A DNA stretch of 42,833 nucleotides from a virus: the IMG/VR virus record IMGVR_UViG_3300020578_000164, positions 1-42,833 of that record. One strand, 5' to 3'. The notes below the pieces were generated by a model that saw only the letters and a program-made list of their open reading frames with translations, did not search any database and had not been told where the DNA came from. Position numbers and translations under genes: made by a program. How positions within the stretch are numbered: the stretch's first letter is position 1; every line of letters begins with the position of its first letter. Shown here piece by piece: positions 1,201-33,700 of this stretch.

Positions 1201-3453
1201 ATGGATCATCAAACCAGCCTCATTGGCACGGCGTCGTGCCTGGCAAACCTCGGGATCAGGGTATTTCCCCTGCAGCCGGGATCAAAACTGCCGAAGTACG
1301 GTCTAAAGTGGGACGTCGAAGCGACGAACCGGGGCAGTGACGTTCAAAAAATGTTCCCTGCCGGCCAGCTCTGGGGTTTGGCCGCTGTCATGGGCCCGAC
1401 ATCCGGGATCATGGACTGCGAGCCGGACAGCGCTGAGGCGTTTGCCCTGCTGGAACAGTTCATTCAGCAGTCTCAGGTGCGTACTGTGGCGTACCGTGCC
1501 TCCCGAGGCAACCACTATTGGTTCCGGTGGGACCCGGATTTGACCGTGTTCGGCAGTTCAGTGGTCAAAGTGGACAACCTGGAGTGCCGTTTAGGGCTGG
1601 ACCAGGCCTCGGTATATTCGGCATGTCCGCCCACTATACACCCGACCAGCGGTCAGTATTACGCCTGGTTGCCGGGTTGTGCCCCCTGGGAAGTGCCGGT
1701 TGCCCCGATACCACAGCCCCTGAAAGCGTGGTTCCTGGCTCACTACCAGAAAAACAAGACGGCTGCTCGGAAAACCACCCAAGTGTCCGCCGAGGACGGG
1801 GGTTTGCTGCCCGAAACAGGTAACCGGCATGAGTATATGCTCCGGCTGAGCAAGCTGTTGGCCGGGGATCTGCGTCTTCCGCGCGGTTTGGTGGTCGATA
1901 TGATGCGACCGTTGGCCGACCGCCTCGGGACGATGCACGAAAAGGGGAGAGGCGAGCAGGAATTGCAGAATTTGGTGGCCAAACTCGCCGTATCCCCGTC
2001 TGCGGTCGAAGATTTCGCTCATATTGACTTCGCTGACGCCCGGCAGACGGTTGTGGAGACCCGCCACGCGGCGGAACTTGCCGAAGAAGCCTCGTATCCC
2101 CCGGAAATCCCGCAAAACGTGTTCGATTCTCGGCTGCAAATCGTCAGTTTGCACGCCAAAGCCGCTCAGTACCCGAGAAACCTGTTCCTGCTCGGGTTGT
2201 TAGGTGTTGCCTCCGGTCTGTTGGGGACGTCCGTGCGGGTCCGCACAACCCCCGACGCCCCAACGACCGGAGTGCAACTGTACATTTTCGGGGTTGGCCC
2301 GTCCGGATCCGGAAAATCCATCACAATCAACGCGGTGACAGGCCCCCTGAAGAATTCTGAGCGGGTCCTGACCGACGCCACCCCTGAAGCGTTTGCTGCC
2401 GGCATGGCAAAGTTCCCCCGGGGCCTGCTTGTCGTGCTCACCGAAGGCAAGGACTTCCTCGGGATGTTCGGCAGGTACTCCCAACAACTGGCCGGAGGAG
2501 CCACGAATACCGGAATGTGGCTTCGAGCGTGGTCCGGAGACCCGATCATTCAATATCGCAAGGGTGGAAACGTCACCGTTCGCGCCCCGTTCGCCTCCAT
2601 CGTCGGGGCGATCCAGGGCGTAAACCTGAACCAGATCCCGGGGATTGACGTGATCGACGGGTTGATCCAGCGAATGCTGCTGTTCCCGCTCGGACGGGTC
2701 CCCGAGGAACCTGCGTCTGACAGCCAGCGGGTACTGTCCCAGTGGTGGGACCGATGGGAGGCGGTCGCCAAACGCCTTGTCACCGTTCGCGAAGCCATCT
2801 CCAGCGTTGATACGCTGAGTCTGGCCGCGGCTGCGGGGGTCCCGGTTGATCCGGTTGTGTTGACCTTAACCCCCGCAGCCAACGCGGTATGGCAGCAATA
2901 CGCCAAACACAAGCGGTCTGATGCGTATCTGGGGCAGTGGCCGGACGAGCACCCTTGGCGAAGCGAGGTTCTTAGGCACGCCGAGGTCGTCCTCCGCATC
3001 GCCGGAGTGCTTCGGCTGCTGGACCAGGCTCTGGAGGAGCACACGTGGAGTGCGATGTGGACCGTCACCAGAGAGCTGGTTGACCCGATTGTGCCCGAAG
3101 CCGGGGTCCAACGAGCGATTGCCCTGGTGGAGTGGCTGTGGCTTCACAAGCAGCGGATGCTGGATGCGACCGTCGACAACGCGTACGCTAAACTTTGCGG
3201 GGCTGCCGGGGCTCAAACCCAGGCGGTTACCGATATGCTGCAGAACACCGCAGCTCAACGTGCGAAGAAACTGCAGGTCCGAGGGTTTGCCGTGTTCACG
3301 CAACGGCAATACCAGAGAGTCAACAACCTCGGTCGCGGCGCGGCAGAGTACGAGCTGGGGTTGTTTACCCAGTTGGGCTGGCTGGAGCAGGTGCCGGAAA
3401 CGGATCCGGTCAGCTATAGGTTCAGGGTTCAGTTCGAACGAAAGGCAGATTGA
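1201..3453 (+). CDS. Primase-polymerase fused to a DUF3987-like helicase/ATPase
   Basis: This is probably the phage replication protein, 750 aa. The N-terminal ~190 residues match the bifunctional primase-polymerase fold: FPLQPGSKLP at 22-31, acidic pair D72/E74 in MDCEPDS, H105 in GNHYWF, and LECR at 127-130, followed by a PP..HPTSGQYYAW segment. The middle holds a P-loop, GPSGSGKS (366-373), and a Walker-B-like VVLTEGKDF, as in DUF3987 helicase-like ATPases. Such fusions lay primers and unwind DNA at the fork. The ATG at 1201 is chosen because GGAGAG (1190-1195) precedes it; a GTG at 1186 would overlap that site. The gene follows the iteron-like array and its promoter. Family calls are from motifs only. 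Confidence 0.85.
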   Translation: MDHQTSLIGTASCLANLGIRVFPLQPGSKLPKYGLKWDVEATNRGSDVQKMFPAGQLWGLAAVMGPTSGIMDCEPDSAEAFALLEQFIQQSQVRTVAYRASRGNHYWFRWDPDLTVFGSSVVKVDNLECRLGLDQASVYSACPPTIHPTSGQYYAWLPGCAPWEVPVAPIPQPLKAWFLAHYQKNKTAARKTTQVSAEDGGLLPETGNRHEYMLRLSKLLAGDLRLPRGLVVDMMRPLADRLGTMHEKGRGEQELQNLVAKLAVSPSAVEDFAHIDFADARQTVVETRHAAELAEEASYPPEIPQNVFDSRLQIVSLHAKAAQYPRNLFLLGLLGVASGLLGTSVRVRTTPDAPTTGVQLYIFGVGPSGSGKSITINAVTGPLKNSERVLTDATPEAFAAGMAKFPRGLLVVLTEGKDFLGMFGRYSQQLAGGATNTGMWLRAWSGDPIIQYRKGGNVTVRAPFASIVGAIQGVNLNQIPGIDVIDGLIQRMLLFPLGRVPEEPASDSQRVLSQWWDRWEAVAKRLVTVREAISSVDTLSLAAAAGVPVDPVVLTLTPAANAVWQQYAKHKRSDAYLGQWPDEHPWRSEVLRHAEVVLRIAGVLRLLDQALEEHTWSAMWTVTRELVDPIVPEAGVQRAIALVEWLWLHKQRMLDATVDNAYAKLCGAAGAQTQAVTDMLQNTAAQRAKKLQVRGFAVFTQRQYQRVNNLGRGAAEYELGLFTQLGWLEQVPETDPVSYRFRVQFERKAD

Positions 3454-3454
3454 C

Positions 3455-4054
3455 ATGGATACAGAGGACGCCAAAACCATGATCTCCGCTTTATGCGTTC
3501 GACACGACAGCGTGTATTACCGCATCCCCGGGGTGGATCCGTGGGATAGTGCAAGAGATTGCCGGAAATGCACCGACAGCCATCCGGTGATCGCACATCC
3601 GCCGTGCGCTCAGTGGGGCCGCACAAAGCCTCTGGCCACCGTTGATCGCGACCAGAAAGCCTTGGCGTTGTTTTGTCTGAATGCAGTCCGCAAACGAGGA
3701 GGTGTGTTGGAACACCCCCTCGCCAGCGGGTTGTGGTCGTGGGGGTGTATACCTTCTGACGGCAATCCCGATATGCATGGTGGCCGGCTGATAATTGTCG
3801 ACCAGTTCGACTTCGGGCATCCAGCTCGAAAGATGACCGGACTGTACATTGTCGGACTACCTCGACACGAAAAACCTATATCAGTCAAATTTTTCTTGTC
3901 GAGGTACTCGCAACCTGCAACGGGGGTACCGGGGCGGCTGATGACCTTGAAACGGCTTGGCCGGGAGGCTACGCCCAAACCCTTGGCCGAGGCTATGGTT
4001 GCGTTGATACGGCATTACGGGATAGGAGGATTGAATAATGAGCAACTATCTTAA
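3455..4054 (+). CDS. HPPC-motif phage protein, DNA cytosine methylase-like
   Basis: A 199-aa protein whose ATG starts 2 nt past the end of the primase gene, so translation is probably coupled. It contains VIAHPPCAQWGR and, about 35 residues on, GGVLEHPLASGLW. HPPC resembles the PC catalytic loop of C5-cytosine methyltransferases, and I recall similar unnamed proteins in many phage genomes. I see no clear SAM-binding glycine motif, so methyltransferase activity is uncertain. Its last codons (PLAEAMVALIRHYG...) lie in a 61-bp sequence repeated at 4781-4841. The end overlaps the next start by 17 nt. Confidence 0.6.
   Translation: MDTEDAKTMISALCVRHDSVYYRIPGVDPWDSARDCRKCTDSHPVIAHPPCAQWGRTKPLATVDRDQKALALFCLNAVRKRGGVLEHPLASGLWSWGCIPSDGNPDMHGGRLIIVDQFDFGHPARKMTGLYIVGLPRHEKPISVKFFLSRYSQPATGVPGRLMTLKRLGREATPKPLAEAMVALIRHYGIGGLNNEQLS
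3980..4040 (+). repeat. 61-bp perfect direct repeat, copy 1
   Basis: It runs from CCCTTGGCC through the GGAGG ribosome site to the ATG at 4038, covering the 3' end of the HPPC-motif gene and the translation start of the next gene. An identical copy lies at 4781-4841. Confidence 0.95.
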
Positions 4055-4748
4055 CGTGAACATTCCAACGTTCTACGCGAAACTCGACTCGGCGTTCCTG
4101 TACGACCTCGCTCCTTCACCAAACAACAAGCAAGTGCCGGTGGAGGTGTTTGCATACACGTCGATACCCCAACGCTGTGGTATGTTTTCGGTAATGACTG
4201 AGTGGGGTTCGCAGCACGCCCGTGTGCCGATTCACTATCTACGGTCTTTGAACACCGAAACAGCCTCGAACTACCCGCTGGATTGGTTGCAGCTTTGGGA
4301 TTCGCTTTCGTATTACGCATCCGTGACAATCCTCGAATACTGCAAGAACCGTGGTGCTATGGTCTGGTTAAAAGATCACACGCAGCATCAAGCCAAGTAC
4401 ATGTTTACTCTTGATTGGTGCATGGGGCCACAATATCAGACAGGCTACGGCGAATACGCGGGAGGACACAAATGCGGACACGTTTTCGAGGGCGAAGGCG
4501 GACAGTTTTTCATTCAACCGAATAACCGGGTGCTGTGGATGGACGGCGGTGCTTGGATATCGAAAAAATTGGACAAGCCGGATTGGAAGGTGTTCAGTCA
4601 AGAGTTCTCTTGCGAACGCACCGGCTCGCGGTGGGTAAGTGAGTCAGACGAAGAACTATACTTTTACGGTTTTAAAAAGCGGGAAGCATCGGGCAAGGTT
4701 GATTTGGACCAACGAGATAGACAACAAAAACTACGGTTTCAGGATTGA
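4038..4748 (+). CDS. Hypothetical phage protein inside a repeat-flanked cassette, 236 aa
   Basis: I do not recognise a function. The start follows a strong ribosome site (AGGAGG) supplied by repeat copy 1. The protein is soluble-looking and rich in Trp, Tyr and Phe. A segment with GGHKCGHVFEGEGG and a conserved-looking NNRVLWMDGGAW lie in the second half, and the tail ends near LYFYGFKK. Base composition looks noticeably more AT-rich than the neighbours. With 61-bp perfect direct repeats at both ends, this suggests a separately acquired cassette (moron-like). Similar proteins occur in other phages from memory, without assigned role. Confidence 0.7.
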   Translation: MSNYLNVNIPTFYAKLDSAFLYDLAPSPNNKQVPVEVFAYTSIPQRCGMFSVMTEWGSQHARVPIHYLRSLNTETASNYPLDWLQLWDSLSYYASVTILEYCKNRGAMVWLKDHTQHQAKYMFTLDWCMGPQYQTGYGEYAGGHKCGHVFEGEGGQFFIQPNNRVLWMDGGAWISKKLDKPDWKVFSQEFSCERTGSRWVSESDEELYFYGFKKREASGKVDLDQRDRQQKLRFQD

Positions 4749-4780
4749 GCACGAGGGCGAGAAAAGGCGAAGGGCCGAAG

Positions 4781-4841
4781 CCCTTGGCCGAGGCTATGGT
4801 TGCGTTGATACGGCATTACGGGATAGGAGGATTGAATAATG
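4781..4841 (+). repeat. 61-bp perfect direct repeat, copy 2 (with gene-end remnant)
   Basis: Identical to 3980-4040. The first ~50 bases are a non-coding remnant of the 3' end of the HPPC-motif gene, and the last part supplies the ribosome site and ATG (4839) of the next gene. The sequences diverge straight after the ATG. It marks the right edge of the cassette containing 4038-4748; 4749-4780 holds nothing else. Confidence 0.95.
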
Positions 4842-5096
4842 TTGAATCAATACGAGCTGGAAATAACGTGTTTGTGCCCGGTGGATGATTTGCCCGACGT
4901 GTATCAGTTGACGATCACGGCACGGCGTGTGCTACCTGTGGAAGCGATTTTGCAAGTGGTCTCTGAGTTGAGTTCGCAGAAGCTTTTTCAGGAGGCTCTG
5001 TGCCAAGCAATCCATCGCAGGGTCAATGCCTGCTGTGTTTTGGTCGGGCACCACAGCGGAGTCAAGGTGCGGACGCAGTGCGGGGGTGCCGATTGA
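4839..5096 (+). CDS. Small conserved phage protein with GHHSGV motif, 85 aa
   Basis: The start is set by GGAGG in repeat copy 2. The product reads LEITCLCPVDDLPDVY near the N-terminus, FQEAL in the middle and LVGHHSGVKV near the C-terminus. This pattern (CPVD...D.Y, FQE, G.HSGV) is familiar from small phage proteins of unknown function next to accessory DNA genes. No fold can be named with confidence. Its stop overlaps the TTG start of the next gene, so the pair is probably translationally coupled. Confidence 0.65.
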   Translation: MLNQYELEITCLCPVDDLPDVYQLTITARRVLPVEAILQVVSELSSQKLFQEALCQAIHRRVNACCVLVGHHSGVKVRTQCGGAD

Positions 5097-5827
5097 TTAA
5101 ATACCACGGGACGCCAATTGGCGGTACAAAACGAGACGCAATGCTGTTTTTGCAGGGAAGGCATGCCTTGGTCAGTTACGCGGCTCCGCTACACTTGCCT
5201 GAAGTCATAAACTGCTGCGAGTCTTTTTGCCTAGACAACGGCGCTTTTTCTGTATGGAAAGCGGGAGAAGGAACGGTCGATGAGTGGGGCTACTACAACT
5301 GGGTATCCAACCTCGTCGACCACCCTTCTTTTGATTTTTTCATAATACCGGATGTCATCGATGGGACGGAGCAGCAGAACAACGACGCAGTCTTTCGATG
5401 GAAAAACATCCGCGGTGGTGTTCCGGTATTCCATCTTTCTGAAGACCCGTCAAGGCTTTTGTGGCTTGCCGGGATGTTCCCAAAAGTCTGTTTGGGGAGC
5501 ACGTCTAAATGGCCGCGAGTTGGGTCTGCCGATTGGTGGCCGTTAATGGCGGATTTTATGGACACCATTTGCCGGGGCGGCTCCCCGCCCTGCAAGTTGC
5601 ACGGCCTCAGAATGTTGAACCCCGCAGTATTTACTAAACTACCGCTGCATTCAGCAGATTCATGTAACGCCGCGATAAACGGCGGATTGTGTCTGTCCGG
5701 AGGAATCCACCCAAGCCTGGAACGGTGGCAAGGGTCGGAGAGAATAGCCCGCCGCATCGAAACGCATCAGTCGGCACCGTTCTGGGATCGACGAAACGTT
5801 GATCTGGAGGTAACTGACTTGCGGTAG
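5093..5827 (+). CDS. TGT/DpdA-like protein (candidate base-exchange enzyme)
   Basis: A 244-aa protein starting at a TTG that overlaps the previous stop. I chose this start because KYHGTPIGG lies immediately after it and is a conserved opening in similar phage proteins. Visible blocks in order are LDNGAFSVW (D48), IIPDVIDG (D87), GVPVFHL, CLGSTSKW (133-140), LHGLRM (H170, R173) and SADS (187-190). The layout recalls the TIM barrel of tRNA-guanine transglycosylases and the phage DpdA proteins that put 7-deazaguanines into DNA. D48 and D87 would be candidates for the catalytic acids. No queuosine-precursor genes are in the window, so a DNA-modification role is inference; an unrelated enzyme is possible. 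Confidence 0.55.
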   Translation: MIKYHGTPIGGTKRDAMLFLQGRHALVSYAAPLHLPEVINCCESFCLDNGAFSVWKAGEGTVDEWGYYNWVSNLVDHPSFDFFIIPDVIDGTEQQNNDAVFRWKNIRGGVPVFHLSEDPSRLLWLAGMFPKVCLGSTSKWPRVGSADWWPLMADFMDTICRGGSPPCKLHGLRMLNPAVFTKLPLHSADSCNAAINGGLCLSGGIHPSLERWQGSERIARRIETHQSAPFWDRRNVDLEVTDLR

Positions 5828-5831
5828 TACG

Positions 5832-5855
5832 TTTTTTTTTTTTTTATTGGGGGGG
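5832..5855 (+). repeat. T14 and G7 homopolymer tracts upstream of the recombinase
   Basis: Fourteen T (5832-5845), then ATT, then seven G (5849-5855), five bases before the ATG at 5861. The G-tract is the only plausible ribosome site. Slippage at either tract would change promoter or ribosome-site spacing, a classical phase-variation arrangement, although no variation is visible in one sequence. Confidence 0.8.
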
Positions 5856-5860
5856 CGGTC

Positions 5861-7369
5861 ATGGCAGCGTACATTTATGCACGGGTGTCGACAGTGGAGC
5901 AGGTTGTTGGGGGGTGCAGCATCGAAGGACAGGTGAGATCCTGTCGACTGTACTGCGAGGCCAACGGGCTTGTGTTGGGTGCGGCTACCAATTGCGACAA
6001 AGCCGGCGTGATTCTGGACGGCGGTCGCAGCGCGTTTTCGAAACCGTTTGCCACACGCCCCGGCGCAATGCTCCTCGCGGGAGCCTTGCAGCAGGGAGAT
6101 ACCGTTGTCGTGACCAGTTTGACGCGGCTGTTCCGCCGAGTCGCCGAAGCCGCCACGATAATGGAGCGGTGGGTTCAGATTGGCGTAAGCGTGACGTTTG
6201 TCGACTACCCGTCGCTTAGTTTCGATTCGGCGAACGGGCGGTGTTTGGTGTACTGCATGGCCGCCGTGGCTCAGCTCAAGAGCGAGTTGATCGCAGCGAG
6301 GGTCCGCGAAGGACGCGCGCGCAAGAAAGGTCTTCCAGCAGAACCGAACAGACCGGCTAAGCCGGCCAAGGTTTTGCTTCCGGCAGCGCAGCAGCCTATT
6401 GCCGAAGTGATTCGGCGTATGGCTGAAAAGCGGCCCTCTTCCCGATCCGGGCGGGTGTGCGTTTACGCCAGAGTTTCGACCGACGAGCAGTCTGTAGACA
6501 CACAACTTGCCATTTTGAGGCAGGCGTACCCGGGCGCTGTTGAGTATGTTGACCACGGGGTCAGTGCGTGGAAGACCTCTTTGCCGGACAGGCCCGAGGG
6601 TGGGCGAATGCTGAGAGAGCTGCAACCCGGAGACACGATTGTTGTTCTGCGACCAGACCGGGTATTCCGGTCCCTGAAGGACGCTGCGACCCAGATCGAC
6701 GCGATTCAAAAAGTTGGGGCGTTTTTGCACATTCACGAGGGTGGAATAAAATCCGACGAGCTGTTTGGTCGGCTGCTGCTGGGTATGTTGTCGGCGTTTG
6801 CTCAGCTTGAAAGCGAGGAGACCAGCAGGGCGACAAAGCACGCGATGGCGATCGCCTGCGGAACAAACGACGCCGCGTTGCAGGCCCGTCTTCCGAAACC
6901 GCTGCTTCGAGACGTGCCGCCGAAAACAAAACACTACGTTTTTGACGATGTGTTTGATTCAGGAGAGCGACAGCAAATGTGGCTGACAGTTCACCTGACC
7001 AAAGCAAACTATTGCAGTTTGGGTGTTTGTATTTTGGATGCCACAAACAGGAGTTTGTACGAGAAAGGGCTCCCGCCACTGACATCGCAATCGATGGACA
7101 TGCGGGACTACCGGCAGGCTTTGCGGGAGGTCGGTACAAAAAAAGCAAAGGCGTTGATACCCAAGATCGAAAACTACGCCCGCGTAGCCTCACCTGTCGG
7201 GTCTTCGCAAAACTTCCCGAAGGCGGAAAAACGGTACGAGCATTTCATGCGGGTGTTTGGTGAACTCCCTCGAGAGCAACGGGACCTGCGGCTACTCACA
7301 ATGATGCAGAGCCCGAAAGCTGTCGCCGCGTTCGCGGATGCAACCAAGCGAGCAGTCGAGACAGTTTGA
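5861..7369 (+). CDS. Double-headed serine recombinase (two resolvase domains), 502 aa
   Basis: Two full serine-recombinase catalytic domains lie in one chain. Domain 1 (about 4-155) has YARVST with R8 and nucleophile S10, then TSLTRLFR with R89 and R92. Domain 2 (about 198-330) has VYARVST with R204 and S206, then RPDRVFR with R267 and R270. Both keep a helix-E-like end (AAVAQLKSELIAARVREG; AFAQLESEETSRATKHA). All key Ser/Arg positions are present twice. The usual invertase HTH or large-integrase recombinase/zinc domains are not seen; residues 331-502 are unrecognised. It may act in integration, excision or resolution, working as a built-in dimer. Its end overlaps the convergent HTH gene by 74 bp. 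Confidence 0.85.
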   Translation: MAAYIYARVSTVEQVVGGCSIEGQVRSCRLYCEANGLVLGAATNCDKAGVILDGGRSAFSKPFATRPGAMLLAGALQQGDTVVVTSLTRLFRRVAEAATIMERWVQIGVSVTFVDYPSLSFDSANGRCLVYCMAAVAQLKSELIAARVREGRARKKGLPAEPNRPAKPAKVLLPAAQQPIAEVIRRMAEKRPSSRSGRVCVYARVSTDEQSVDTQLAILRQAYPGAVEYVDHGVSAWKTSLPDRPEGGRMLRELQPGDTIVVLRPDRVFRSLKDAATQIDAIQKVGAFLHIHEGGIKSDELFGRLLLGMLSAFAQLESEETSRATKHAMAIACGTNDAALQARLPKPLLRDVPPKTKHYVFDDVFDSGERQQMWLTVHLTKANYCSLGVCILDATNRSLYEKGLPPLTSQSMDMRDYRQALREVGTKKAKALIPKIENYARVASPVGSSQNFPKAEKRYEHFMRVFGELPREQRDLRLLTMMQSPKAVAAFADATKRAVETV

Positions 7370-7529
7370 CGTACTTCCGTCCGCCGATCTCAACTCGCGA
7401 TAAGCGATCGCCGTTTCTCCCGCGAGTGCTCCACTTTCGGACAGTGCTGACGTCCAAAGTCAAGCCGTAACGGGTCTGGACAAACGCCACGATTTCTTTG
7501 GCGCTGAGGAGTTGCTCCGGAGTTTGCAT
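7296..7529 (-). CDS. Excisionase-like HTH protein, 77 aa
   Basis: On the minus strand from an ATG (revcomp of 7527-7529); a TTG start at 7553 is possible. The product has LLSAKEIVAFVQTRYG, then STVRKWSTRGRNG and a wing-like RVEIGGRKYVKLS, the layout of winged-helix excisionase/MerR-type proteins and of DUF1580-like small HTH proteins known from Planctomycetes. It faces the serine recombinase and overlaps its 3' end by 74 bp, so it is a good candidate recombination directionality factor. No clear SD precedes the ATG. It may instead be a transcription regulator. Confidence 0.6.
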   Translation of the reverse strand: MQTPEQLLSAKEIVAFVQTRYGLTLDVSTVRKWSTRGRNGDRLSRVEIGGRKYVKLSRLLAWLHPRTRRQLSGSASL

Positions 7530-7609
7530 CGAGGGGGGCCTTATAGAGGACAAACGGGAATGTTGGTAGAATAGCGATTTGCCGGTATTGCTGTCCAGCC
7601 GAGGGTAAT

Positions 7610-7630
7610 GGAGGATTATGAAAATCCTCC
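7610..7630 (+). promoter_or_regulatory. Hairpin in the leader of the capsid operon
   Basis: GGAGGATT (7610-7617) pairs with AATCCTCC (7623-7630) around ATGAA, followed by CCCCTATTCT. It lies 24 bp before the scaffold ATG and just ahead of its GGAG site (7641-7644). With no good T-run it fits a regulatory or mRNA-stabilising stem better than a terminator. The rest of 7530-7654 shows no further gene; a TAGAAT at 7567-7572 could be a -10 box but has no -35 partner. Confidence 0.5.
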
Positions 7631-7654
7631 CCCCTATTCTGGAGCAGTAAAACC

Positions 7655-8701
7655 ATGTCTACATCATCAGCCTTCCCAACCTTTACCGACCTCGCGGCTG
7701 CTCAGAGCGCTCCGGGGGGAGCAACGCCATCGGCACAGCCGGCTGCTTCGGTTGTGCCGGTGGCTGCCCCGGCGGTGACCGCAACACCCGTCGCTGCCGT
7801 AGCCCCTCCGCAGATACCCCCGCCAGCAGCGGTGTCGACAAACGCAATGATTCGACGCCTCGAAGCAAGCGGTACTCTTAACCCCGGTCACGGTTTTACT
7901 GACGACATGCAGGTCTTGGAGTACTTGGCAGTTCAGCAGCAGCCTGCGCAAGAACCGACTTCTCCTGCCGCACAGCCGCCGCAGCCGGCCACTGGCGGTA
8001 TGCCAGCCCCGTCCCACAGTGAACTTGCTGCGGCGGCGGCGGCTTTGCAACAGTCCGGGATGCTGACCTTTGAAGCCGGAACAGGGGTGTGGAAAGCTGT
8101 CAGCCCGTTGGCCGCCACCGTCGCCAACGCTATGAACGAAAACGTTGCCCGTCAGCGGGCAGTGATGACCGAGCTTTCGGACCCGCAGGCATTTATCCGT
8201 AACTACGGCGCGGATGCTTTTTCTGAGTTTATCGCTCCGTTGCAAACGCAGATTCAACAGCTTACGGATGCTCTGCAGCAACAGCGTCAGATGCTTGCGG
8301 CTAATGCTCCGGACCCCGGAAAAGAATTTGTTGCCGCAAACTCTGCGGCCTTAAAAAACCCTGACGGCAGCCTTACTGCGGCAGGCCAGGCCTATTCGCA
8401 AGCGTGGGACGCGGCAGCACGAGCCGGCGTACGCAATCGAGAGGCAGCCCACGATCTGGCGTTTATGGCCGCTCGCCCGTTGATGCCTACGCCAGCAGCC
8501 CAAACCGTCCCGGCGGCACCGTCAAAACAGACGTTGCCGTGGTCCTCCACAATACCGACAACCGCAGTCAACCCTACGTTCTCAGCTCCCGGCCCCCTTA
8601 CGACGTCCGGTCCGGCTCCACTCGGCGTACCGGTCAACAACGCTGGATTTCCCGATTTTACCGCAATGGCGGCACAACGTGCTGCCGGCACCACTTCGTG
8701 A
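7655..8701 (+). CDS. Probable capsid scaffold protein, 348 aa
   Basis: It lies directly upstream of the major capsid gene, the usual place of the scaffold that guides procapsid assembly. The first ~130 residues are Ala/Pro-rich and disordered. The centre (about 150-235) is helical and Gln-rich (FIAPLQTQIQQLTDALQQQR), a likely coiled coil. The C-terminus is again Pro/Ala-rich and ends in a short FPDFTAMAAQRAAG segment that echoes the N-terminal FPTFTDLAAAQSAPG. Such motifs often contact the shell. GGAG precedes the ATG. No protease triad is seen, so it is not a scaffold-protease fusion. Confidence 0.65.
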   Translation: MSTSSAFPTFTDLAAAQSAPGGATPSAQPAASVVPVAAPAVTATPVAAVAPPQIPPPAAVSTNAMIRRLEASGTLNPGHGFTDDMQVLEYLAVQQQPAQEPTSPAAQPPQPATGGMPAPSHSELAAAAAALQQSGMLTFEAGTGVWKAVSPLAATVANAMNENVARQRAVMTELSDPQAFIRNYGADAFSEFIAPLQTQIQQLTDALQQQRQMLAANAPDPGKEFVAANSAALKNPDGSLTAAGQAYSQAWDAAARAGVRNREAAHDLAFMAARPLMPTPAAQTVPAAPSKQTLPWSSTIPTTAVNPTFSAPGPLTTSGPAPLGVPVNNAGFPDFTAMAAQRAAGTTS

Positions 8702-8715
8702 CGAGGATTTAGACC

Positions 8716-9861
8716 ATGGTAGCTCTTGTTCCGCAAAACGTCGCAGGACACGTCAATCTTGTCAGAGACCTCGCGCCGAGTTACTGGAAAGGTGTTTCGG
8801 ACCTGACAGTTCGAAACTTTCTGACCATGTACAACTTGCGGCGGTTTGGGCGGTTGACGTTTAACGCCCGGGGCCATACTCAGGTATGGAATGCGAGGAT
8901 CAAACAGCCGAGCGTTTCTCCGGCAGTTGAGGGGCAACCGCTGCAGTTCGTGAATTTTGATACCGATATTCAGTATTTCATCGGGATCAAGGGCTATCGC
9001 GGTTCGGACTTCATGGGTGAACTCGAATACCTGCAGCGTGACGGTGCGGGCGACATCGCCATTACTGATCGGTATCAGAGAAAAAGCCAAGAGCTGGCGC
9101 AGGCTATGACAGAGCGCATCCAAAAGGCGTTCTGGTGCAACGGCAACGACGCAGCATTCGCCAACGACCTTGCTGGGATCAATACCGCCCTGGCCTATGA
9201 CGACGCGACTCTCACCTCAGCAGACAAGGTCGCAAAGCCAACGGGTACGTACTGCGGGCAGACGACCACCCTCGGCGGGCTCGGCGGAACTTGGTCCGCC
9301 ACGGCGGGAGAAACCAAACCGAATGCCTCTCTTGCCAACGACTGGCCATTCGGGCAGGGCTCTCCGGAGTACGACGGGACGTCCCCCTTGATCGTGAACT
9401 ACGGGCCAAATATCTGGGGCAACGGCGGCACAGGTTTCAGCAAGAATATCATCTCTGCTGCCTCCTTCGCTATGACGGCTATGCTGCACCGCGGCGGGCA
9501 GTCAATGGTCGGTGCGCCTCCGCAGGTCGCGATTGCGTCCAACCTGTTCCCGTCCTTCAAGGACAGTTTCCGAGCCAACAACCGCCAGATCATGCCGTGG
9601 AAGGACGGAGACTTGGGGTATCCCGGCGAAACGCTGATGGTCGACGGCGCCGTGTATTCCATGGATTACGCGATCCCGCAGTCTCAGGCTTACATGTACC
9701 TGCCCCAGTTCCTTGAAGCGTTCTTCCTGCACAACGACATCTACGGCCCAATTGGGCCAGAATGGTCAACCAGCCACACTGGATACTTGTACTACATCAG
9801 CACCTACGGAAACTTCAAGTTCCTGCCGAAGTACCTGTGTCGGTTCGTTAGCAAGACCTGA
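8716..9861 (+). CDS. Major capsid protein (HK97 fold)
   Basis: A 381-aa shell protein, a normal length for an HK97-fold capsid protein. It starts 14 bp after the scaffold-like gene with GAGG ahead of the ATG. It shows the expected mix: an N-terminal helical arm (LVRDLAPSYWKGVSDLT), an extended loop, FDTDIQYFIGIKGYRGSDFMG, a central helix ITDRYQRKSQELAQAMTERI, a Gly-rich variable insertion (about 180-245), and a C-terminal segment with a QVAIASNLFPSFK stretch and FLPKYLCRF. Identification rests on these features and on its position after the scaffold. Confidence 0.8.
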   Translation: MVALVPQNVAGHVNLVRDLAPSYWKGVSDLTVRNFLTMYNLRRFGRLTFNARGHTQVWNARIKQPSVSPAVEGQPLQFVNFDTDIQYFIGIKGYRGSDFMGELEYLQRDGAGDIAITDRYQRKSQELAQAMTERIQKAFWCNGNDAAFANDLAGINTALAYDDATLTSADKVAKPTGTYCGQTTTLGGLGGTWSATAGETKPNASLANDWPFGQGSPEYDGTSPLIVNYGPNIWGNGGTGFSKNIISAASFAMTAMLHRGGQSMVGAPPQVAIASNLFPSFKDSFRANNRQIMPWKDGDLGYPGETLMVDGAVYSMDYAIPQSQAYMYLPQFLEAFFLHNDIYGPIGPEWSTSHTGYLYYISTYGNFKFLPKYLCRFVSKT

Positions 9862-9920
9862 TTTGTTTCCGGTTTTTACCCTCCGATATTCGTCTGATCA
9901 CATTTTTGAGGATGTAGTGT

Positions 9921-10451
9921 ATGGCCGGAAATACTATTTCGATGCGGTTGGGTGGGGTCAATGTTGTTGACGACCCGGCATTCCTCGGGCAAGGTGCCAA
10001 ATTTCAGGATATTGACTACACGAATCCGGAAAACCCGGTGCTCCTGTCGCAGCAGGAGGTGTGTGCGGTCCTCGTGAAGAACGACTCGGGGGCCACGTTG
10101 GCCGCGGGTGCCGGGCTTCGCATGAAGGCTGCGGATACCACCATGACATTGGTTGGCGGACTGTGCGGGGCCAATCAAGCCCTGCACGGAGTTGTTGACC
10201 CGTGGATCTCTGCGCCCGTACCCGTTGGCGGGTTTTTCTGGATGATCGTGGAAGGCCCCACCTTGGTTCTTGCCGGGGTCGGCGGGTTGACTCCAGGTGC
10301 TTTGTTGCAGACGGCGGTGAACGGGACGTTTATCGCAGGTACGGAAGGCACCAACCCTGTCGGCCACAGCGGATATTCGTCGGCAACGACTGCGGCAACG
10401 GCCCGTGGACGTGCGTACGTCCGAACGCCGCTCAGCCCGCTCGATTGTTGA
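9921..10451 (+). CDS. Head decoration-like protein, 176 aa
   Basis: It follows the capsid gene by 59 bp with GAGG before the ATG. It is a compact beta-rich, Gly/Ala/Val-rich protein (GATLAAGAGLRMK; PVPVGGFFWMIVEGP; GGLTPGALLQTAVNG). The phrase VPVGGFFWMIVEGPT resembles the fold used by small capsid cement and DUF2190-type proteins that bind the outer shell. The position after the capsid gene agrees. Without a structure the role remains a prediction. Confidence 0.55.
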   Translation: MAGNTISMRLGGVNVVDDPAFLGQGAKFQDIDYTNPENPVLLSQQEVCAVLVKNDSGATLAAGAGLRMKAADTTMTLVGGLCGANQALHGVVDPWISAPVPVGGFFWMIVEGPTLVLAGVGGLTPGALLQTAVNGTFIAGTEGTNPVGHSGYSSATTAATARGRAYVRTPLSPLDC

Positions 10452-10496
10452 TTGCGGGCCGCAGGTTTTTCCTTTCTTGTTTTTGGAGATCAAATC

Positions 10497-10607
10497 GTGG
10501 GAGACACACCGGTACCGCCGACAGGGATTCACGGCGGCAACAAGCTGGCAAACGTGAAGCCTGGTAATCCGATCCAAAACCCAATCACACCGATCAGCAC
10601 AAAGTGA
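10497..10607 (+). CDS. 36-residue protein between decoration and zinc-finger genes
   Basis: GTG start with GGAG nine bases ahead; the stop overlaps the next GTG (GTGA). The peptide is Pro/Gly/Asn-rich with no hydrophobic core: PVPPTGIHGGNK, then PGNPIQNPITPIS. It is too short to fold alone. A ribosome site and coupled stop argue that it is translated. It could be a capsid-bound peptide, or a leader that carries ribosomes into the hairpin at 10636-10653. Function unknown. Confidence 0.5.
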   Translation: MGDTPVPPTGIHGGNKLANVKPGNPIQNPITPISTK

Positions 10608-11269
10608 CCCGCGAGGGTGACGTTGCTGTTCGGTTGGCGGGCGCAAGCCCGCCATCTTTTTTGGCCGACGCAGAGTTTCCCGGGAAACGGGTATGCTGTG
10701 TTTGCGGACTGCCTTTCACCCCGCACGCTGGCGAGAGGGTATGTATGGCATGTAGCGACGAAGTCGTCCGGACGGCTCAGCAGGTTTTGACGGGCGAAGG
10801 CTCGTGGCGACGGGCGCTCCGTGATGTCCGTCAAAAAGGCCGACCGTTCGTACTGGACGTTGCTGAGACGGTGATGGAAAAACTTGGTGGTCCGGAGAAA
10901 CTGGCCGAGCGGTTGGCTACCGACTTTATGCGGGCTCGCGGAGAGGGCCTTAGCCCGGAGCAAGCGGTATTCCACCAGCCTGACGTAAAGGTCCTGAAGG
11001 GGTTGTACGAACTTCTCAAGGGCTTGATGGACTCTCGAGATGAGCTGGTTGATGACTCGGATCCGTTTGACGGGATGTCCGAGGAGCAGTTGATGCAGGT
11101 CGCGTCAAATGCGGCTATGCTGCGTATTGAAAACGACGCCGGTTTTCGAGACGATGTTTTAGCTACAATCGCACGAGTAGATGCGACTGCTATCACCCGA
11201 GCCGCGATTAAGGTGTTGTCCGCCCCAACCGTCGAGGTGATATATGCCCCTCCGCGACCTTTTGTCTAA
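10604..11269 (+). CDS. Zinc-finger phage protein, possible small terminase or head protein, 221 aa
   Basis: It opens with a GTG overlapping the preceding stop; a TTG at 10661 after the terminator is an alternative. Near the N-terminus CCVCGLPF and, 12 residues on, CMAC form a two-CxxC zinc ribbon. The rest is helical: FVLDVAETVMEKLGG, DVKVLKGLYELLKGLM, NAAMLRIENDAGFRDDVLA. DNA binding plus helices, upstream of TerL, is compatible with a small terminase, but the metallopeptidase-like gene lies between them and no HTH is certain. The 3' end overlaps the next gene by 26 nt. An intrinsic terminator lies in its first codons. Confidence 0.55.
   Translation: MTREGDVAVRLAGASPPSFLADAEFPGKRVCCVCGLPFTPHAGERVCMACSDEVVRTAQQVLTGEGSWRRALRDVRQKGRPFVLDVAETVMEKLGGPEKLAERLATDFMRARGEGLSPEQAVFHQPDVKVLKGLYELLKGLMDSRDELVDDSDPFDGMSEEQLMQVASNAAMLRIENDAGFRDDVLATIARVDATAITRAAIKVLSAPTVEVIYAPPRPFV
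10636..10662 (+). terminator. Intrinsic terminator or attenuator inside a 5' coding end
   Basis: GGCGGGC (10636-10642), loop GCAA, GCCCGCC (10647-10653), then ATCTTTTTT: a 7-bp all-GC stem with a GNRA loop and six T. It lies inside the start of the 221-aa gene and after the capsid block, so it probably reduces read-through from capsid into terminase genes. A 12-bp palindrome TTTCCCGGGAAA follows at 10676-10687. Confidence 0.75.
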
Positions 11270-13346
11270 AGCCCGACCGTACGCGCCGTACGGGGTGTAC
11301 GGATTGACCGCAGGCACTGTAGCCGGCGCTCCCGGAAGCGAGTACTACGGGCCGATCTTGGGGGCTGTTGGGAACCTGTTTGACCTGCCGGGCAGCTCAG
11401 TACGCGATCTGTTGGCCGGAGAAAACCCTTTTGATCAATGGGCTTCGCCGTTGTCCGGAGACAACCGGGCTACGGGTCGCGACGTACTTGAACGGTTCGG
11501 GATGCGGGCTAACCGAGAGACAGGGATGGCGGGGTGGCTGGATGACCCGATGGAAGGCCTGAGAGACTTGGCCGGATTCGGGGTCGAGCTGGCGACCGAC
11601 CCGTTAAATTTCGCGTCGATGTTCAAGCTCGGAAAGCTGTTTCGAACAGGTAAGTCCGCCGCGGCGCATAACGCAGCGCTGGACGCCCTGCAGCGAAACC
11701 CGGAACGCCAGCGCCTTGGTCAGCAAATGTCTGAGGCGTTCGGTGAGTCTGGCGACCACACAATGGCCTTGATCGACGCGGCTACGATTCGCCAGGGTCG
11801 TGATCCCGGTTTGGTGTACGGCAGTCTTACGGTAAAAAACCTGGAGCGAGCGGCAACGGGCGTTGCTGCAGCTACGGCGGCGGCTGAGATGATGATGCCA
11901 GACTCTCCGGGACCAAACCCGTTGACGCTGAACCAGCCGTCACTACCGGACCTATCGCGACCGCTATTCCCGAGACTAATGGAAGACGAGGCTATCGACC
12001 TTTTTTCGGGAAATATAACCCATGACCAGTACAACGCGTTGATAGACACTCCGGGATATGACAGTTCAATCCCCAGAACCCCCCGGTTAAAAACCCCAAA
12101 GTACGTAGATTTTATTGAAAACCTCTGGTCAAAGCGCAGGTATGACAGAGAAGAGCTTCCGAACGAAAACTATCGGAGCGCGCATAAGGAGGTTGAAAAA
12201 GAAGTCGAGGCTATGGGCTTGGTGCCAGGTAGTGCACAGGCAGCTCACGCCTATCATGAAAAAATGCAGCCGAAAATAGAAGCTTTGGGTCGTTTGGGTA
12301 AAAACCCAACTGACGACGTAACTTCTTTTGTTGGTACCAATGTCGGTTCCAGAATTGACATTAAAGAGTTTGCAAGGGGTAACCCGATAGGAACGTTGCA
12401 TTTTAAGGATGGCCCTGTGCAGTATGTTAGGGCTGTACAGTTGCTGCCACAACGCGGCAAAGCGCTTGTAGAGTTCGGGCTTGCAAGCAATAATAAGACG
12501 CAAATCGCAAACCCTTTAGTCGAACACAAGATTGCGGAAAAGAATGTCTCTCTGGTAGCTTCTGGAGAAGGGAGCAAAAATTCGTGGGCTGTGATGTCCG
12601 GGCAGGTTGGGCCGACCGCCACCCGTGAGCAGGTGCGTGAAGCGGTCATGCAGGCAATGCAGGATCCTCAGTGGCAGCAGGTTGGGTTCAACCCCGAACG
12701 GCACAGCTACTTCTATTTGCAAGGCGACCACCGCACACGTGTTACCGGTGCCGACGAAGTGCTTCAATACGGCGATTTGGTCTTAGCCAAAAACCCACGT
12801 ACGGAGATGATGGGTTCGGAAGGTATTCGCCAGAGGCTGCAAGCGGTGGGGCTGATCCCGGACGACGTCTCCCCGCGGGCTTTGTATCAGCAAGCCGCCG
12901 TTGACGGCGACCCCCGCGCTCAGATTCAATTCACTCCGGAGGGGGCGGTCATCACGCCGTTTGCTCCCGACGCGTCGACAGCTCCGCACGAGGTCGGGCA
13001 TTACCTCGACAGGCTGTTACGCCCGCGCAGCCAGCGAACCCGTAATGCTGAAGAGGCTTTTGCCGGAGGCCTCGAAAACTATTTGGCCACTACCCAGACA
13101 AGTAGCCCGGGGATGGCCAATGCGATGGGGTATTTCAATCGCGAGATACCGCGCGTCTACGACCCGCAGTATGGGTTCCGGAATTTACCCGCTCGAGGTG
13201 GCGAGGACTACGGCGACTTGTTCGGGATCACCGACACGACGTCGCCGCTTGACAGGCAGCAAGTGCCTGACTTGGCTACGCCGGCGGGGCAGATGTTGTT
13301 GAGGAACATACTTGCCCGGTTCAACCCGTACGGGGGCGTGCAGTGA
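11244..13346 (+). CDS. Large virion protein with zincin-like HEVGH motif, 700 aa
   Basis: Residues 41-120 (from AVGNLFDLPGSS to ELATDP) match residues 44-123 of the 1842-aa protein at 30796-36324 at about 59 of 80 positions. The middle is more AT-rich and charged. Near 480-510, a WQQVGFNPERHSYFY segment followed by VLQYGDLVLAKNP resembles blocks seen in large polyvalent phage proteins. HEVGH lies at 582-586, with E603/E604 in AEEAFAGG as a candidate third ligand, the layout of zincin metallopeptidases. It may be packaged and injected, or process virion proteins. It overlaps both neighbours (26 nt upstream, GTGA downstream) and lies unusually between the zinc-finger gene and TerL. Confidence 0.7.
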   Translation: MPLRDLLSKARPYAPYGVYGLTAGTVAGAPGSEYYGPILGAVGNLFDLPGSSVRDLLAGENPFDQWASPLSGDNRATGRDVLERFGMRANRETGMAGWLDDPMEGLRDLAGFGVELATDPLNFASMFKLGKLFRTGKSAAAHNAALDALQRNPERQRLGQQMSEAFGESGDHTMALIDAATIRQGRDPGLVYGSLTVKNLERAATGVAAATAAAEMMMPDSPGPNPLTLNQPSLPDLSRPLFPRLMEDEAIDLFSGNITHDQYNALIDTPGYDSSIPRTPRLKTPKYVDFIENLWSKRRYDREELPNENYRSAHKEVEKEVEAMGLVPGSAQAAHAYHEKMQPKIEALGRLGKNPTDDVTSFVGTNVGSRIDIKEFARGNPIGTLHFKDGPVQYVRAVQLLPQRGKALVEFGLASNNKTQIANPLVEHKIAEKNVSLVASGEGSKNSWAVMSGQVGPTATREQVREAVMQAMQDPQWQQVGFNPERHSYFYLQGDHRTRVTGADEVLQYGDLVLAKNPRTEMMGSEGIRQRLQAVGLIPDDVSPRALYQQAAVDGDPRAQIQFTPEGAVITPFAPDASTAPHEVGHYLDRLLRPRSQRTRNAEEAFAGGLENYLATTQTSSPGMANAMGYFNREIPRVYDPQYGFRNLPARGGEDYGDLFGITDTTSPLDRQQVPDLATPAGQMLLRNILARFNPYGGVQ

Positions 13347-15076
13347 GCCTTTCTGATGCCCTGAAAGCGGCAGCCCGCCTTGTACGCCTGAACAACGACG
13401 CGTTGGAGTTGTTTCGACCGACAAAATACCAAGAGCCTGTTGCGATGACCAAGGCGTCGGAATGCTTGGTGCAGGGAGGCACCAGATCAGGCAAGTCCAC
13501 GATTGTTGCTGCTATGGTGGCGGCATACGCCAGAAACAAGCCGATCATATTTGCTGACGGAACGAAACACGATATCCGGGAAAAGGCTTGGGCGAGCCGG
13601 TCAACAACTGTCTGGCTGATCGGCCTGCAACTCAACCACATCGGGCAGACTCTTTACCGTTTGCTTCGCAAACCGGGAGCGTTTGACTGCGTACGGGATC
13701 CGCTTACGGGTAATCTACGTGCGTGGCAGCCGGGGGTTGTTCCCGGGGACGACCAGATTGGGCCGGAGGGTCGGGAGCCTGCGCCAGCGTTTATTCCCGA
13801 CGAGGACGTGGTGCAAGAGACTTGGGAGTCCAAAAGCGAACATAAACTGACTAGCATGACGCTGCGGAACGGCACGGTCATATATGCTTACGCAAGCACG
13901 GCAGAGGTGAAACGCGGCGACCCCGTGAATTTGATTTGGATTGACGAAGAGATTCGATTCTCTGATCACTACGCAGAATGGCAAAGCCGATTGAGTGACC
14001 GCAAGGGCCGACTGTTTTGGACAAGCTGGCCTGACCTGCAGACAGAGGCTCTGCTGAGACTACATGACCGAGCGAATACGCAGGCCTCCGAAATCGCTAG
14101 AGGCAAGCGTAAGACTGCGGACGTTGCCCGGTTTGTATTTGTCGGTAGCAACTCCCCGTTTATCGATTCGGAGGAGCTGCGCAAGCGTGCTGAGGGGTGG
14201 AGTGAGGCCGAGAGGCTGGCTCGAGACTTCGGGGAGTTTCCTGTTGGTACGATTTTGGCGTATCCTGAGTTTTCCGAGGAGCGTCATGTGGTTGACTACG
14301 GAGAAGGTAACCCTTTGAATGACCGCATCACGGCGGTCATGGATGAGCTGAACGGGGGTGTTCCGGATAACTGGCCTGTGGACTTGATCCTCGACCCGGG
14401 AACTACCAGCCCAGCAGTTTTGTGGTGTGCCATACCGACGCCGGATTACTGGGACGGAGGTGTTCCGTACTACGTAGTGTATCGCGAAATGAACGTAGCT
14501 CGCATAGATGCGCAAGATATGGCTGTTCGAATTCGAGCCATCGAACCTGATCGGACGTACTCGAGGTTCATAATCGACAAAAAAGCCGGCGCTCAAACGC
14601 CGATGGGGTTCGCGTGGAAAGTGGCCGAGCAGTACTCCCAAAAATTCAAAGCTGTTGGTGTCAGAAACCTGACAACCGGGTTTGAGTTCCTTCCGGGCGA
14701 GCACGTTTGGGCTGTTCGGACCTTGAAACTGCGTGCGTGGATGCGTGGCCGGCAAGACTGCCCCCGTCCACAACTGCGGATTTACGCAAGGAATTGCCCT
14801 ATCCTGATACAACAGATGAAGTCTGTTCGGAAGACGATCCGCAGGTCCGAAGTGCAGGATAAAATTGCTGACGGGCAGGTCCACGACGTACTGGACACGC
14901 TGGAGTACTGGGCCGGCAGCGACCCCACATTTCGCGTGGTAACGACTAAGGGCACAAGCCCGGGCTTGCGAATGTTCGAGCAAGACGTTAAATTTTGGGC
15001 TGACCTCCGAGCCTCTTCCCCCGGACAAGGCCCGGGCAAACCGATGATTATTTTAGGTGCGCCAGGTGCAATATGA
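13343..15076 (+). CDS. terL: Terminase large subunit
   Basis: The 577-aa packaging motor. Walker A is GGTRSGKST (45-53). Walker B is LIWIDEE with D201 and E202. The nuclease domain shows LILDPG (D351), FIIDKKAG and VHDVLDTLEYW as the expected acidic cluster. The protein cuts concatemers and pumps DNA through the portal (15434-17593). The GTG start overlaps the previous stop and its end overlaps the next ATG, so the three genes are coupled. Length and motif spacing are typical. Confidence 0.93.
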   Translation: MSLSDALKAAARLVRLNNDALELFRPTKYQEPVAMTKASECLVQGGTRSGKSTIVAAMVAAYARNKPIIFADGTKHDIREKAWASRSTTVWLIGLQLNHIGQTLYRLLRKPGAFDCVRDPLTGNLRAWQPGVVPGDDQIGPEGREPAPAFIPDEDVVQETWESKSEHKLTSMTLRNGTVIYAYASTAEVKRGDPVNLIWIDEEIRFSDHYAEWQSRLSDRKGRLFWTSWPDLQTEALLRLHDRANTQASEIARGKRKTADVARFVFVGSNSPFIDSEELRKRAEGWSEAERLARDFGEFPVGTILAYPEFSEERHVVDYGEGNPLNDRITAVMDELNGGVPDNWPVDLILDPGTTSPAVLWCAIPTPDYWDGGVPYYVVYREMNVARIDAQDMAVRIRAIEPDRTYSRFIIDKKAGAQTPMGFAWKVAEQYSQKFKAVGVRNLTTGFEFLPGEHVWAVRTLKLRAWMRGRQDCPRPQLRIYARNCPILIQQMKSVRKTIRRSEVQDKIADGQVHDVLDTLEYWAGSDPTFRVVTTKGTSPGLRMFEQDVKFWADLRASSPGQGPGKPMIILGAPGAI

Positions 15077-30795: not shown

Positions 30796-33700
30796 ATGGC
30801 CACGATTCGCGAACTGTTATCTCGGGCGCCTGCGGCTGGCGTAAGCCAGCCGCAAACCTCGGCAGACGATACAGTACCGGGACTGCTCTCGCAGATTGGG
30901 TCCACCGGCCTCGGGGCCGTCGCGACTGTTGGCAATTTCCTGGACCTGCCCGGCAGCTCTGTGCGCGACCTGCTTGCCGGCGAAAACCCGGTCGATCAAT
31001 GGCTCACGCCTTTCAGCGCAGAGAACCGCGTCAGCGGTCGCGACCTGCTCGAGCGGTACGGGATGCGGGCTAACCGGGAAACCGGTATCCTCGGTTGGCT
31101 GAAAGACCCCGGCGAAGGCCTGCGGGATTTGGCGGGGTTTGCTGCCGAAGTCCTGACAGACCCGTTCGGGCCGGTGGGGGGAGCCCTTGCGAAAGTCACT
31201 GGCTTAACCCGTGCCATGCAGACCGCACGTACTGCTGCAACCGCGGCGCAGCGAGCACAAGTGCCGCTGATCCTGCAGCGTATGCCGAAGATGTCTCGAC
31301 CCGAACAGACACTGCACCCGTTGGTGTACGGTCTCGGCGCCGCGGCTAAGGCGGCGTTCGACCCCCTGTCGCCAACGGGGCGGGATGCTCTGGCGACGGC
31401 GTTCAAAAGCGTGAAGGGTAGAGCACGGGCTGTGTTCGACAAATACGGCTGGGGCGTCACCGATCCGTTGATACAAGATGTTGCGGCAATGACCCGCGAA
31501 AGTTTCCGGGCGATATCAGATAAAGAGACCGCAGACATTGCGGGCTTTTTCTTGCAGACCGAACGGCAGTACGGACTGAAGTTCCGCACAGACGACGCCG
31601 TGGACTTCCGGGTTCCCGGAAACGAATTTGTTGAGGGATCTCCTGCGAGGGTTGAGGCAAACAAGCGAGCTGTCCGAAACTATCTGGAAAACCCAGAGTA
31701 CAGAGATGCGGTGAACGCTGCCTTGGGGCCAACACCGGCGTCTGGAAAATCCCTGCCGTTCGTGCCGTTTGATAACCGGTCCACGTTTGACACTGGCGAC
31801 TATGTGACGTTTGTTGGGTCCTCGGATTTGCGGCAGGTGGAGTCCAGCCTCCGACTACCTGATGGCCGTTGGCGTGTTCGGCTGCGGGGCTCTGCGGATG
31901 AGGTTGACCCGGAAAGATTGGTCGCCAAGTTTCGTGCAATGGATGTTCTGCTTCCCGCAGAAGCGTATCGATTCCTCGACAGGGTGATAGCGAAGAACGC
32001 GGCGGCGCGGGCCGAAGCGGTAGACGCCGGATGGAACGTCCCCGACCTGTACGACCCGTACATAGAGCACATGCCGCGACAAAAGTCGGACGTAACGCGA
32101 ACCGGTGAGGTACTGACAGGGCAGTCCCCGCAAAGTTTTGCCAAACCCCGGCAAGGCGTTGCCCAGGCTTTGCAGGTATCGGGCGGGCGGGAACAACTGT
32201 TGTCCGGGTTTCGAGAAGGCACGCCGGGGGTTGAAAAACTTTTTCGCGATCCCGAGTTTGAGCAAATCGTCCGGGAGTACTTGCCTCCGAGCCAAGGCGG
32301 GACCGGCACGCTGGTGTCAGACCCGACACTGGATTCGCCTTCCCGCGTAAACGACATCGGCGGTATGCCCGTGGTCGGTCGCAAGCACGTCGAGGATATT
32401 GCCGACCTGTTGGGCAAAGACCCCGATGAGTTGTGGGCAGAGCTGTGGGAGTTGGCCGGCGACCGACGCCCGGACCGGTTTGTCGGGCAGCCCTACTCCG
32501 GCCCCCTCGGGCCAATGTTCTCCGTGTCTGACAAAGGTTTGTGGGACGGGGTCAGCTCGTCATACCCAACAACTGCGGCGTTTGTACCTCCGTCGATATT
32601 GCCGACAAGCACCGAGGTTGTACTCAACCCGGGCGAGATGTTTTCCATCTCCGCGTCAGGGGCATTTCCTCTGTACCGAGCGATCACTCCCGACTCTTCC
32701 GACGTTGTTGACGCCTACCTTGCAGCACTGCGAAAATCTCCCAGCTACTTCAGCGCTAAGGGGATATCCTCTGTACGTGCGGTTGACGTGCCCGCAGGTG
32801 TCGGCGACGTCATATACCGCAGGCTGGGCTTTGACCCGCTGCCGGCCCGCTCCGGTTTAGCCGGGCATGAGGACTGGGTCAAGTCAGTACATAACAACCC
32901 GGTTGGTCAAATCACCTCGACGGTCGACAAACGCTTTGTGTTTCCGATGGCGTTGGAGCGGGGTCTGTACGACAAAGTCATCGCCCGATACCTCGACCGG
33001 TTGCATACTCAAGGCGTGCCGGTGCTGCCGCACTCGGCTATGACGCAATTTGTGTTTGGCCGGACGGCAATGTTCAATCATATCAACAGCCCCCGCCTGA
33101 CGGGTGCAGCGTCAACGCCGGTTTTACCGAGCGTGTACCTGGACCACTACATCCCAGACCCGGCAACAGGTCTCGCAGCACCGGTCGCCATAAGCCACAC
33201 GCTGACGCCGGGTGCAAGTACCACAACGCCTTGGAACACTATCCCGTCCAGCACGGACCCCGCGTTTTTGAGCTGGGCTACCGTGAACGGAGTGAACCTG
33301 TCTTCTCCGGACATGGTCACTTTACTGGCTAAAATAGACCGCAAAGTGGACCCCGACGCTATCGGGTACTACGGGATGCACAAAGGGCGACCGTACGTTG
33401 TGCAGCCCGCGCTTCGCCCGCGGATTACGCACCCTGCGATAATGGGGCACCTCAACGCCAGGATGGATACTCTGACAAAAGAGAACCCTTTACTGCAGAC
33501 GGATATTGTGCAGGATAGGTTCGAGTCGCTCATCGGCAGTAAGTACGGATCTGCGGGATTGGTTGATGAGTGGATGGCGGTGCCGGATAATACCACGAAG
33601 GGTTTTATCGCCCGCAACGCGGACGGTACGCCGCTGAAAAACCAATCTGACGCCCTGCTATCGATGTCGCGACCGCATTGGGGGCGTGCCGTAACCTCCG

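Follow-up and report, generated by a model that had tools for sequence, protein, structure and literature searches.

A phrog_3704 gene between two copies of a start-codon junction in a freshwater phage: a probable single-gene insertion

The window analysed here is a stretch of 42,833 nucleotides from a freshwater phage (IMG/VR record IMGVR_UViG_3300020578_000164). Two copies of one sequence, J1 and J2, enclose gene X between genes A and Z (Table 1). A preliminary description had claimed perfect direct repeats of 61 bp that hold the 3' end of the preceding gene, a ribosome site and a start codon, so that both following genes use the same start signal, and this was borne out: J1 and J2 are identical at a start-to-start distance of 801 bp, and X and Z both begin at the ATG of J. 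Each copy is composed of the coding 3' end of A, GGAGG, 8 nt and ATG; in the reading frame of A, the J1 portion reads PLAEAMVALIRHYGIGGLNN, and the stop codon of A sits 17 nt inside X. On the right, identity stops exactly at the G of the ATG. With two mismatches allowed the match comprises 66 of 68 bp (3973-4040 and 4774-4841), to the left of which similarity is no better than that of shuffled sequence.

Table 1. Features of the A-X-Z locus, with positions in the window
Feature	Position	Strand	Remarks
Gene A	3455-4054	+	phrog_12600, E 3.8e-43; protein of unknown function; source of J
Repeat copy 1 (J1)	3980-4040	+	A coding end + GGAGG + ATG of X; 61/61 against J2
Gene X	4038-4748	+	phrog_3704, E 5.3e-41; intact, purifying selection to about residue 214
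Tail of unknown origin	4682-4780	+	X homology ends near 4667-4681; gives about 20 extra residues and the X stop
Hairpin AAGGGC-CGAA-GCCCTT	4770-4785		Arises only from the tail/J2 junction
Repeat copy 2 (J2)	4781-4841	+	Non-coding duplicate of A end + GGAGG + ATG of Z; 3' of X stop
Gene Z	4839-5096	+	85 aa, weak phrog_37496, profile 4-79 of 84, E 1.6e-4; full length from J2 ATG
DpdA/TGT-like guanine transglycosylase gene	5099-5827	+	phrog_887, E 2.6e-51; in same variable slot
Double serine-recombinase protein	5861-7369	+	502 aa; PF00239, 2 stretches; right border of slot

Since the longest other dispersed exact repeats in the window, tandem arrays left out, measure only 22 and 18 bp, a chance origin of J is excluded. 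An array of 29-bp tandem repeats (CGGCAAACACGTGGTAATACCTGGATATG) lies near the left end of the window, at 336-507. No further copy of J was found in the rest of the window or in loci L125 and L126, and an exact 20-mer of J had no match in IMG/VR. When 1.03 Mb of loci were compared, exact dispersed repeats of at least 40 bp with a spacing of 150-5000 bp occurred in this phage group only. J is plain A coding sequence and contains no inverted repeat; considered as an RNA structure, it was rejected, having no fold better than shuffles. No sigma-70-like promoter was found in window positions 3400-5900.

The alignment of the A family passes through J1, so J is derived from A and J2 is the duplicate. 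J2 was also considered as the remnant of a duplicated gene A and rejected, there being no homology past 68 bp. The C-terminal alignment of A with its relatives extends through J, and in the two nearest relatives A runs about 20-27 residues past the J end point, so that the end of A in the window is itself altered. Inside A, at 3855-3909, is a 20-nt inverted repeat, 90% complementary, with a 15-nt loop.

Gene X is not a duplicate of any neighbouring gene. Its residues 4-218 align to positions 3-217 of the 223 in the phrog_3704 profile. Scanning IMG/VR with a profile yielded 194 relatives, the best 80 of which were kept; among these 80, identity in the aligned segment reached 84%. In many phages the relatives of X adjoin unrelated genes, and judged by these contexts X appears to be a wandering gene that moves between phages. 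In none of about 90 X-family loci tested was there a border repeat like that of the window (score 63 in the window, at most 14 in all other loci, shuffle maximum 12). Of the suggestion that the structure arose by insertion or duplication, the second half is true of the 61-bp junction and not of gene X. At other places in the window, two genes (11365-11605 and 30926-31166) have a 73% identical stretch near the start and are likely paralogues.

As for composition, X is indeed AT-richer overall, as had been remarked (50.1% vs 57.4% GC, within the bottom 6 of 843 700-bp windows). At third codon positions the difference disappears: the GC fraction of X is 0.59-0.61, equal to that of A (0.59), the DpdA gene (0.59) and the terminase gene (0.61), and composition is therefore no mark of foreign origin. 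Public phage records (H1-H30) label phrog_3704 proteins ferredoxin or PurM (phosphoribosylaminoimidazole synthetase). Neither label found support for X, which had no Pfam hit above the cut-off and no convincing PDB sequence match; its fold model (mean pLDDT 59.7) was too poor to judge and had no PDB match at E 0.001. A link to 7-deazaguanine modification was considered because a QueC gene lies 3' of X in locus L002 and the DpdA gene lies 3' of Z in the window, and was rejected because relatives of X elsewhere have other neighbours.

The 3' end of X differs from that of its family. In the nearest relatives, DNA similarity to X (blastn) begins directly after the ATG and stops at 4667-4681, and X comprises 236 aa vs 213-223 aa in the full-length relatives examined. 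These two observations indicate that the native end of X was replaced by about 100 bp. The tail was searched for in other phage loci and in the remaining half of the phage, with no significant match; its interpretation as a fragment of another gene was thus rejected, and no donor carrying it was found. The hairpin at the tail/J2 junction may be a chance product.

The age of the duplication can be set against that of X. J1 and J2 differ at 0 of 61 positions (95% upper bound on divergence 4.8%), and J2 is free of coding constraint over most of its length. Between X and its nearest known relative, dN is about 0.10 vs a dS of about 1.8 or more, which indicates purifying selection on X. With no differences in a mostly unconstrained J2 against such a dS, the duplication would be young relative to X's own divergence, unless gene conversion keeps the copies alike. 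The event that had been called recent is recent in this relative sense, and gene conversion could also hold the copies identical.

The region between A and the recombinase gene was compared with that of related records (L012, L013-L016 and L022-L024, some of them fragments), in which the primase is 71-72%, A 50% or the recombinase 58% identical. In L012 and L013-L016, A is followed by a gene of 72-75 aa and a PEP-CTERM gene and then by the recombinase gene. X, Z and DpdA were looked for in the related records, some of them fragments, and none was found. The different gene content of this region indicates that the slot is variable. It had been proposed to look for phages with a single repeat or with other genes in the same slot; the latter were thus found, while no phage with one J and without X was found among the records. 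As search baits, Z and DpdA yielded no relatives, and the primase profile had no match in bacterial and archaeal genomes.

The double serine recombinase is encoded 1 kb from the repeat, and J might therefore be thought of as a site at which this enzyme excises X. This seems very improbable. The protein with both domains is conserved in relatives, but those whose recombinase is 58% identical (the L012/L015 counterparts) have no J-like sequence, and J, as plain A coding sequence, lacks an inverted repeat. An integron gene cassette would be marked by an attC site and the tyrosine recombinase IntI; the recombinase encoded nearby is of the serine type. A transposon with target-site duplication was rejected too, X being a phrog_3704 gene and the insert having no inverted repeat at its ends. 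Directly 5' of the recombinase gene, at 5832-5860, a T14 run is followed by G7.

Taken together, the other contexts of X in other phages, the failure to find it in the related records and its damaged 3' end support an insertion, and we consider it probable (roughly 0.6) that X entered at the start-codon junction of A with duplication of J, by template switching or short-homology recombination. The ancestor would have had the order A-J-Z, with J being the A end together with the ribosome site and start codon of Z. A DNA end or a replication strand that stopped at the ATG of J could then have been joined to another phage's phrog_3704 gene at its start codon, and nearly the whole of this gene, plus about 100 bp of other sequence, would have been copied. 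Rejoining of the phage 61-68 bp upstream of the departure point would have duplicated J; X and Z would thereby have identical start signals, and translation of the operon would be preserved.

The order of insertion is not fixed by the data. Conversely, A-J-X may have come first and J2-Z may have been added behind X as the inserted unit. The two ATG junctions are symmetrical, and Z and DpdA, like X, were not found in the related records, both of which suit such an order; but it would leave the lost native 3' end of X and the foreign tail without explanation, and of the two it is X that has a history of transfer between phages. We therefore regard the addition of J2-Z as rather unlikely, and prefer the insertion of X before Z, since it is X that is mobile in other settings and whose 3' end is damaged.

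If X was so inserted, the direct repeat would make it deletable in one step by homologous recombination or strand annealing, as the preliminary description had proposed for an exact deletion that keeps the operon intact. When the flanks were joined in a script, recombination between the J copies removed X exactly and left Z unchanged and A open, but the end of A became VESIRAGNNVFVPGG in place of EQLS. About 30 bp is taken as the minimum for Red-beta recombination (PMC3945230), and at 61 bp J is in principle long enough.

A second contig, IMGVR_UViG_3300020198_000019 (57,551 bases), matches window positions 5844-14366 at 100% and the last 490 bases of the window at 490/490, and is therefore the window's own phage or one almost identical to it. 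This contig begins in the T14 run (5832-5845), at position 5844, and extends about 20.5 kb beyond the window; the repeat lies outside it. The repeat site is thus covered by a single metagenomic assembly and crossed by no second contig, which leaves room for an artefact: a chimeric join, or A-J-Z genomes mixed with a separate X-J circle, which would look the same in a short-k graph. Usual reads and large assembly k values exceed 61 bp, and X fits the ATG of J with a proper ribosome site. An artefact is thus hardly to be expected.

In the other part of this phage, at locus L126 of contig IMGVR_UViG_3300020198_000019, two families of connectors were recognized. Connector 1 (~60 bp) consists of a GC-rich hairpin, a T-run, SD and ATG; its model gives 13 hits in the whole of L126, 12 of them within 3.4 kb on the minus strand (L126:424-3867), between small, mutually unrelated genes. 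Connector 2 has the form TAACGCRGAAAGCAGGTC ... CCCGGCGACGYTGTGTCGCCGGG TTTTT ... GGAG ... ATG and occurs in 6 copies in the window's phage (L126:5506-8966) and in 9 copies each in the relatives G013 and G014 (L129:362-8015 in the former); the conserved box TAACGCRGAAAGCAGGTC precedes the terminator. Searches of the window and of 601 kb of other phage loci found neither connector, and the connector 1 pattern was not found in bacterial and archaeal genomes.

G013 (L129) and G014 (L131) are 95-99% identical over aligned blocks. One gene (L129:12139-12615), lying within about 490 additional bases of G013 (L129:12137-12624), is absent in G014. The empty site of G014 (L131:12393-12458) holds one hybrid connector, whose left part corresponds to the G013 connector before the gene and whose right part to the connector behind the gene; 18 bp are shared at the point of crossover. 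In addition, in an allele pair (L129:9473-9923 and L131:9742-10210) divergence begins 12 nt after the ATG. Gene gain or loss together with this allele break indicates that start-codon junctions are break points in this group. Single-gene swapping at start signals would thus seem to be a habit of the phage's other genes and of its closest relatives too, on the strength of these comparisons, and it lends weight to the insertion of X in the window, as context and not as proof, J not being a connector.

One may ask whether J is itself a kept element, that is, a young or divergent connector through which single genes are swapped by homologous recombination. The numbers of connectors 1 and 2 in this group against none in 601 kb, and the two near-identical phages that differ by one gene between connectors, speak in its favour. 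But J fits neither family, has no terminator, exists in only 2 copies and is A coding sequence. We judge it improbable that J is such an element. A pair of close relatives differing by the gene between the J copies was not found.

The arrangement resembles several known systems. PeSL-type repeats at the T4 internal-protein loci were reportedly noted by Repoila in 1994. The PeSLs of T4-like phages, as summarised in PMC4503421 (which cites Arbiol 2010 and Comeau 2014), are repeats located where genes begin and have been proposed to drive shuffling. In so far as that summary describes them, both they and J flank single genes with about 60-70 bp repeats bearing expression signals, and both are repeats thought to allow gene gain, loss and shuffling by recombination. 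But PeSLs there comprise a promoter and a stem-loop, whereas J has neither a promoter nor a terminator stem-loop, and they flank different genes in many copies, whereas J has 2 copies and equals a neighbour gene's coding end with SD and ATG. On the same account, the connectors of L126 and G013, with GC-rich hairpins followed by T-runs (in L126 and L129), their copy number and gene gain or loss, are much nearer to PeSLs than J is. In the haloarchaeal tailed virus HGTV-1, repeats at gene starts have likewise been proposed to serve shuffling (PMC3950731): in this non-T4 virus a motif with an inverted repeat precedes the majority of genes in one part of the genome, but it has a TATA-like box, where the connectors of the window's phage have a terminator, SD and start codon. 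The Start-Associated Sequences (SAS) of Cluster K mycobacteriophages (13 bp, 11-19 copies; PMC3203893) also lie just 5' of start codons, and J contains GGGATAGGAG of the SAS consensus GGGATAGGAGCCC, but its next three bases do not fit, CCC being absent; exact matches to GGGATAGGAGS in the window are the two J copies only. J thus shares the layout of PeSL, HGTV-1 and SAS repeats, and not the sequence, copy number or promoter/stem-loop of any. X also resembles morons and other single-gene phage insertions, being one foreign gene between two conserved genes and missing in relatives, but no promoter or terminator of its own was found, and it is the duplicated junction that provides its expression signals.

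The uptake of single genes by phages into dense operons without breakage is rarely caught in the act. Here, the insertion of X appears to bring a duplicated start signal that would leave both neighbours translatable and reversal possible. Because one gene between connectors is there in one relative and missing in another, the connector arrays of this group make start-signal cassette exchange directly testable outside T4-like phages. Tentatively, and with less confidence than we place in the insertion itself, much of the accessory genome of this phage group may be an array of interchangeable single-gene cassettes on stop-terminator-SD-start connectors, with start-codon junctions as general joints and J as a fresh joint. 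If so, J would have been caught before divergence and would show how an ordinary gene's end can give rise to connectors.
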